From Actinocrinis puniceicyclus (lineage in GTDB: Bacteria > Actinomycetota > Actinomycetes > Streptomycetales > Catenulisporaceae), in the NCBI RefSeq assembly GCF_018283645.1, contig NZ_JAGSXH010000008.1, positions 1 to 64,000 on the forward strand: DNA of 64,000 nucleotides. Direction: 5' to 3'. The number at the start of each line of letters is the position of its first letter. Position 1 is the stretch's first letter. Position numbers and translations under genes: made by a program. Below the pieces are notes generated by a model. The model saw nothing but the letters and a program-made list of their open reading frames with translations, was not told the origin of the DNA and searched no databases. Shown in pieces: positions 51,731 through 53,530 of the stretch.

Positions 51731-51941
51731 CGGTGTGGATCCGCGCGCCGCGCTCCGGACGCCATCCGCGTGCCAGTCCGCAGGGTCCGCGCGCTGTCCA
51801 GCACTACCGACACGCGGTGCTGCCGACGGGGTGGGCTGGCTGACTTGTGACGGATCCGGCCGCTAGGATTGATCGTGTTCTCGGCAGTGAAGAGTCGTCA
51901 ATCCGAGCGGGCGGCCCACGAACAACCAGGGAGGCAGCGTC

Positions 51942-52579
51942 ATGGCGTACTCGACCCAAATGGCCGCAGCGCTGTCCGGTGCAACCAGGGCCAGATCCGC
52001 AGTTGGCGACAGGACCGTGGCTCCGGCCCCTTTCTTCACCCCGAGCTGGGAATAAAGCCTCGTGCGCTCTACTCGTTTCGGGACATACTCGCGCTGCGTG
52101 CGTTCGCCCGGCTGCGTGAAGAATTCTCGCTCCAAGCCCTGCGCCGCGCGGTGGGTAATCTCCGTGAACTAGGTGAGATCGATCACCTGTCCGCATACAG
52201 TCTCGTCGCGGAGGGCAAGTCGATCGTCTTGTACGAGGATGACGAGCATGGCACTGATCTGCTGAAGACGCCTGGTCAACGGGTAGTCGCGACCCTCGCG
52301 GACATCATGGCGCCCTTTACTCCGCGTCCGGGCGTGATCGTTCCTCACCTGCTGCACCCATATGACCACGTCTCACTGGACCCGGAGACACAGGGTGGAC
52401 AACCCGTGATCACTGGAACTCGGGTCCCGAGCGAGGAAGTCGCCGCCTTGTTGCGCGACGGCGTCCCGGCCGAAAAGATCGCCGAATACTATCCGTCGGT
52501 CAATGCCGAAGCCGCGCGGGATGCCGAACGCTTCGCCCGATACGTCGGCAGCTACTCCACCGGAAGTCGTGCTGCTTGA
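51942..52579 (+). pseudogene. DUF433 antitoxin-like gene with frameshift
   Basis: The ATG at 51942 has a strong GGGAGG and reads MAYSTQMAAALSGAT in one frame. The rest, QGQIRSWRQDRGSGP through the DUF433 domain (QPVITGTRVPSEEVAALLRD) to the stop at 52579, is in another frame. Family members read GAT-x-GQI without a break. One missing G in the GGG run at 51988-51990 restores a continuous protein of 212 residues with an N-terminal MerR-like helix-turn-helix and a C-terminal DUF433 domain. Probably an inactivated antitoxin; a sequencing error or programmed frameshift is possible. Confidence 0.78.
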
Positions 52580-52620: not shown

Positions 52621-52852
52621 GCGTGCACCCTGATCGTCATGAGCGGGACACGCGGGCTTGGCTGTGACGACGACACCCGGCCGTTTGTGAGCAGCCGTGC
52701 GCGCGAGTGCACAAGCGCCCACCGTGATCGGCTTCTACCTGACGTAGAGCTTCGAATCAAGTCGGACGTCCGGATCCTGAGAGGACTTTCGCCTCTTACA
52801 TCCGGCGGTCCACGCGTTCGCGAACACGTTCCACGGCGGTGTCACGGGCCCG

Positions 52853-52868
52853 TGTGAAGATCGTCACA
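52853..52868 (+). promoter_or_regulatory. CRP/Rex-like palindrome upstream of nuoA
   Basis: TGTGAAGATCGTCACA matches the CRP-family consensus TGTGA-N6-TCACA at all ten positions. Read with one more base each side it also matches the Rex operator TTGTGAA-N4-TTCACAA at 12 of 14 positions. Rex is known to control nuo in Streptomyces, which favours a redox regulator; CRP is the alternative. Confidence 0.6.
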
Positions 52869-52917
52869 AGCCTGTCTCAACGACCAACTGACTTGTCCAA
52901 ATGCGCCCTGACCTGGG

Positions 52918-52933
52918 CGTGATTGAGATCACA
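52918..52933 (+). promoter_or_regulatory. Second CRP-like palindrome upstream of nuoA
   Basis: CGTGATTGAGATCACA matches TGTGA-N6-TCACA at nine of ten positions and contains the perfect repeat GTGAT-TGAG-ATCAC. It is centred 65 bp after the first site and about 44 bp before the start expected from TAGGTT at 52958, near a classic activator position. Confidence 0.5.
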
Positions 52934-53170
52934 CAGCGCGTGGGGCCAGGCAAGAGCTAGGTTACGGATCAACGGGCCGCCTAAAGGGGGCCCCGTGGCG
53001 AGTATCACATCGCCCAGGCCGTAGGATTGCCGTCGATCGGCAGTACCGACGGCCGATTCCGCCCCCGGCTTGTGAACGGCTTCACGAGGCGGGCCGGTCA
53101 GGGGGCGGCTGCCACCCGTCGACGAGGACGCCGGCGGACTACGACTAGCGGCGGAAAGGTGGCGGCACGC

Positions 53171-53530
53171 GTGGACACGTACGTGCCGATCCTGGCCCTG
53201 GGCCTGATCGCGGCGGCGTTCGCGATCTTCTCGGTGGTCATCGGCTCGCTTACCGGTCCGAAACGGTACAACCGGGCCAAGCTCGACAGCTACGAGTGCG
53301 GCATCGAGCCGACCCCGCAGCCGGTCGGCGGCGGTCGGTTCCCGGTCAAGTACTACCTGACCGCGATGCTCTTCATCGTCTTCGACATCGAGATCGTCTT
53401 CCTCTACCCGTGGGCCGTCGCCTTCGACGCGCTCGGCTGGTTCGGGCTCGCGGAGATGGTCCTGTTCGTCCTAACCGTCCTGGTCGCTTACGCCTACGTG
53501 TGGCGGCGCGGCGGCCTGGACTGGGACTGA
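53171..53530 (+). CDS. nuoA: NADH-quinone oxidoreductase subunit A
   Basis: 119 aa, three membrane spans. The conserved loop [22 protein letters not shown] follows span 1; [16 protein letters not shown] is the acidic second span. Part of the membrane arm at the quinone-site junction. First gene of the complex I operon. The GTG at 53171 follows AAGGTGG. A gap of 11 bases separates it from nuoB. Confidence 0.96.

Follow-up and report, generated by a model that had tools for sequence, protein, structure and literature searches.

In Streptomyces avermitilis, nuoA1 is bound and repressed by Rex, which is released by NADH; the operator there, TTGTGACCTGCTTCACAT, has been footprinted with Rex, and nuoA1 shares this regulator with rex, atpI, and wblE (PMC5355995). 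The transcription start of nuoA1 was placed downstream of the Rex box, with protection from −42 to −16, while at cydA1 and wblE the same protein also uses sites 3′ of the start, and it binds some sites with two mismatches (PMC5355995). For CRP, the other regulator that concerns us here, the core of the binding motif is GTG-N8-CAC (PMC10033298). Two further regulators were considered as binders before nuoA: RsrR, which in S. venezuelae has its nuo site inside the operon, before nuoH (PMC5015018), and Gbn, for which no site before nuoA is given (PMC9239103).

The nuo control region of Actinocrinis puniceicyclus

We analysed a window of 64,000 nucleotides from Actinocrinis puniceicyclus, an actinobacterium of the order Streptomycetales, in which the nuo operon (complex I) has its control region at positions 52853-53170. 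The genes downstream were already taken for nuo in an initial annotation of the window, and Pfam matches for NuoA (PF00507, E 3.6e-36) and NuoF (PF01512) bear this out. NADH enters respiration mainly through complex I, whose operon is preceded, from 5′ to 3′, by a distal CRP-type site, a second CRP-type site, a possible promoter P1, a third CRP-like site, a promoter P2, and a predicted Rex operator:

52853-52868, no strand: distal CRP-type palindrome TGTGAAGATCGTCACA, 0 mismatches to TGTGAN6TCACA (10/10)
52918-52933, no strand: CRP-type palindrome 2, CGTGATTGAGATCACA, 9/10 to TGTGAN6TCACA
52958-52963, plus strand: TAGGTT, possible −10 element of a putative promoter P1, TACGTT in three relatives
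52994-53009, no strand: CRP-like palindrome 3, CGTGGCGAGTATCACA, 8/10 with the GTG-N8-CAC core kept, 12 bp before TAGGAT
53022-53027, plus strand: TAGGAT, −10 element of P2, a promoter predicted from conservation
53070-53087, no strand: predicted Rex operator TTGTGAACGGCTTCACGA, the genome's best match, conserved order-wide, its counterpart footprinted in S. avermitilis
53171-53530, plus strand: nuoA (PF00507), first gene of the operon, with a GTG start backed by alignment with relatives

A gene for a DUF433 protein (PF04255) occupies window positions 51869-52579, between a geranylgeranyl reductase-like gene and nuoA. For comparison, footprinting drew on the sequence 5′ of nuoA in 14 genomes of the family, our own included, and in 42 Streptomyces-type genomes of the order; the group labels, Streptomyces-type and Catenulispora-type, are ones that we infer.

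Predicted Rex operator and promoters

Against the Rex consensus TTGTGAAN4TTCACAA, the box at 53070-53087 differs at a single position, which makes it the top match genome-wide. Every one of the 14 family loci has a Rex box before nuoA, as do 41 of the 42 loci of Streptomyces type. Judged by sequence, the true Rex operator before nuoA is this predicted one, which the initial annotation overlooked along with palindrome 3 (52994-53009) and TAGGAT. The genome encodes one Rex, recognized by PF06971 and by the NCBIfam Rex equivalog (367 bits, cut-off 226). Only six sites genome-wide have two or fewer mismatches to the Rex consensus, and the five others lie before rex itself, with the predicted operator TTGTGCGCGCGTTCACAA, before atpI (the ATP synthase operon), before a WhiB-family gene that adjoins a sensor kinase, at the start of hemE, and at the distal palindrome. 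Rex of S. avermitilis acts on rex, atpI, wblE, and nuoA1 through sequences very similar to the boxes found here. The site at the hemE start (L046:2054-2069) is at the same time a perfect CRP-form site.

Consensus scanning for sigma-70 promoters and terminators gave no matches, and P2 has no −35 element recognisable by consensus promoter scan. Its −10 element, by comparison, is strongly conserved: TAGGAT is invariant in the 14 family loci, and TAGGAT or TAAGAT is present in 41 of 42 Streptomyces-type loci. P2 is probably the ancestral nuo promoter, with an expected start at about 53034. TAGGTT, the −10 element originally proposed, remains plausible as a promoter element but appears specific to one lineage: the position is occupied in our genome and, changed to TACGTT but again 24 bp from palindrome 2, in three relatives, and the putative promoter is confined to these four, whereas the order-wide −10 element is TAGGAT. 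The nuoA1 start reported for S. avermitilis disagrees with P2 as the sole promoter; because that start is 3′ of the Rex box (PMC5355995), there may be an additional promoter at that place.

The distance from the −10 element of P2 to the Rex box is 15 bp in Streptomyces-type loci, 42 bp here, and between 42 and 107 bp across the family (15, 42, 47, and 84-107 bp by genus). This variation, set beside the fixed 11-12 bp between palindrome 3 and the −10 element, fits a Rex box that would act as a roadblock.

CRP-type palindromes

The distal palindrome is, as first described, a perfect CRP-form site that also matches 12 of 14 positions of the Rex consensus (over 52852-52869); the 9/10 match of palindrome 2, the 65-bp spacing between the two, and the roughly 44 bp from palindrome 2 to the start expected from TAGGTT were likewise given correctly. 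Perfect TGTGAN6TCACA sites number seven in the 6.77-Mb genome, the distal palindrome among them, with none for a reversed control pattern; at one mismatch or fewer there are 69 CRP-form sites against 25 for the control. In the 591-bp gap before nuoA, three CRP-form sites with at most one mismatch occur where 0.009 are expected; 3000 first-order simulations of the gap never produced three. Over the whole window, at two or fewer mismatches, the count is 12 against 12.3 by chance; the CRP-form signal is therefore local to the cluster before nuoA. The lack of a window-wide excess is what one would expect if the palindromes were a functionless chance cluster, but the local count, conservation in 55 loci, and a footprint that already contradicts the idea leave that explanation scarcely credible.

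The distal palindrome is found only in our genome and three relatives (L009-L011), and was not found at that place in Catenulispora-type or Streptomyces-type loci. In the three relatives all ten arm bases (10/10) are kept, the six spacer bases differ, and neither half retains GTGAA/TTCAC, a core present at least once in each of the other Rex-type boxes examined; in the footprinting, kept arms with changed spacers are seen at both the distal and the Rex sites, a pattern that speaks for function. Conserved arms combined with loss of the Rex-specific inner bases suggest that selection at the distal site acts on the CRP form. The identity of 52853-52868 as a Rex operator, proposed in the initial annotation, was therefore rejected, a better operator being available at 53070-53087, although weak binding of Rex to the distal palindrome is possible. 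A wider version of that proposal would have the distal palindrome serve as a shared Rex/CRP site and TAGGTT as the main promoter. The 12/14 match, the tolerance of S. avermitilis Rex for two mismatches at some sites (PMC5355995), and the P1 element, which persists in three relatives as TACGTT without a change of spacing, speak for it; with the inner Rex bases lost in those same relatives, a better operator at 53070, and TAGGAT rather than TAGGTT conserved order-wide, we regard it as very improbable. The two palindromes initially described are best read, from their sequence and conservation, as CRP-type sites. Helical phasing between them, which the initial annotation placed about six turns apart, was also discarded: they are separated by 65 bp in our genome but by about 91 bp in the relatives, a difference of roughly half a turn, so the phase is not preserved.

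Palindromes 2 and 3 are more widely distributed. The counterparts of palindrome 2 are GGTGATCTCGATCACA in Catenulispora-type and GGTGGTGGAGATCACA in Streptomyces-type loci, and palindrome 3 has a counterpart at a fixed 11-12 bp before the −10 element in each of the 14 family loci (in three as a one-base variant outside the pattern of the script, read directly) and in 41 of 42 Streptomyces-type loci. The order-wide layout is thus palindrome 2, palindrome 3, 11-12 bp, TAGGAT or TAAGAT, and the Rex box; just one of the 42 Streptomyces-type loci falls short of it, every element is present in all 14 family loci, and the single locus from a third family (L028) is without the module. Further conserved blocks (CATCCGACTTCATGATCGTTCGTCAG and TATCCGGTTGGATGATCTTCGT) lie 5′ of palindrome 2 in Streptomyces- and Catenulispora-type nuoA loci (L022-L037 and L012-L021).

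Measured from P2, the Streptomyces-type loci have palindrome 2 near −65 and the Catenulispora-type loci near −61, the second of these being a classical position of an upstream CRP site, as in the class I promoters of E. coli. Here palindrome 2 lies at about −108 of P2, but near −44 of the possible P1. The centre of palindrome 3 falls near −32 of P2 in all genera, an odd position for an activator that counts against the explanation we favor.

Palindromes 2 and 3 match only 8-9 of the 10 CRP consensus bases (only 8 in Streptomyces-type loci) and their spacers are partly conserved, so another regulator may use both. This raises an alternative in which Rex alone controls nuo and the CRP-form palindromes serve a different regulator, or palindrome 3 simply belongs to the promoter contacted by RNA polymerase. 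The imperfect, spacer-conserved palindromes and the locking of palindrome 3 to the −10 element are consistent with it, as is the lack of any report of CRP at an actinobacterial nuo operon in the literature searched, the main S. coelicolor CRP study lying outside that search. Weighing more heavily, the distal site is a perfect CRP form whose arms are kept while its spacer changes, perfect CRP-form sites are enriched genome-wide, and a CRP with a matching recognition helix is encoded; we consider control by Rex alone unlikely.

Compared with M. tuberculosis CRP (E 5e-84), that orthologue has the same recognition-helix motif, and its cyclic-nucleotide pocket motifs are intact; CRP is present in 26 of 26 genomes searched, with 88-92% identity in the three closest relatives. 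Adenylate cyclase presents a difficulty. In a search that covered the PF00211 class, nothing here scored over the cut-off and no protein proved homologous to Cya of the Catenulispora type, and the Streptomyces/Catenulispora-type enzyme was found neither here nor in the three relatives (G001, G003, and G005); in G003 and G005, cyclase-domain proteins occur only in frames longer than 1000 aa. This missing canonical adenylate cyclase counts against the explanation we favor and makes cAMP no more than a possible signal for CRP. The CRP gene itself (L002:1153-1938, minus strand, C66 of our genome, G000) is strongly conserved in these relatives despite the usual cyclase not being found. Separately, an ORF with only a remote likeness to cyclases (L004:275-1168, minus strand; E 0.19 to PF00211, under the cut-off) stands divergently next to a second CRP/FNR-type gene (L004:1327-2121), and the two are possibly a private second-messenger pair.

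Beyond the order, among 58 nuoA upstream regions, Rex boxes occur in 10 (0 expected) and CRP-form sites in 5 (0.25 expected), which suggests that both inputs recur in other families; none of the 58 regions has both. The CRP-form sites, in other families of the class, have one mismatch and lie 47-93 bp before nuoA (L099, L100, L101, L107, and L110).

Probable joint control of nuo and its relation to known systems

Taken together, the conserved sites and the regulator genes make it likely that nuo is under joint Rex and CRP-type control, with the Rex operator at 53070-53087, CRP-type palindromes upstream, and P2 as the conserved promoter. The combined Rex and CRP control of the initial annotation thus holds in outline, with its Rex site misplaced and its promoter revised. 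Under joint control, the CRP orthologue would bind the upstream palindromes and activate transcription. Palindrome 2 would act from near −44 of P1, and its counterpart in relatives from near −61 to −65 of P2; palindrome 3, which overlaps the −35 region, could stand in for the missing −35 element or tune the promoter. At low NADH, Rex would bind 3′ of P2 (at about +37 to +54 in our genome) and block promoter clearance or elongation, and at high NADH it would be released, so that complex I would be made when NADH is available to oxidise. If the palindromes are used in this way, their conservation would place nuo under another global signal as well, throughout an order of antibiotic producers.

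A bolder proposal, which we put forward as a speculation with the balance well against it, is that complex I of Streptomycetales is governed by a dual switch of ancestral origin, in which a CRP-type activator sits on a tandem palindrome before one invariant promoter and Rex acts as a downstream block, and that in the present lineage, which lacks the canonical cyclase, CRP works without the cAMP of that enzyme and an extra perfect CRP site has been gained.

Two described systems come closest. Actinobacterial CRP/GlxR regulons (S. coelicolor SCO3571, M. tuberculosis Rv3676, and C. glutamicum GlxR) involve an orthologous protein with the same recognition-helix motif, and the palindromes here share their GTG-N8-CAC core; they differ from our genome in that the usual adenylate cyclase was not found in it. 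The Streptomyces Rex regulon (nuoA1-N1, rex-hem, atpI, and wblE; PMC5355995) includes the same operon with a near-identical operator before nuoA, and its other known targets also have boxes in our genome, although in Streptomyces-type loci the Rex box lies 15 bp beyond the conserved −10 element and here 42 bp. The regulation is of a known kind in an arrangement conserved across the order, and its Rex half is established in Streptomyces.
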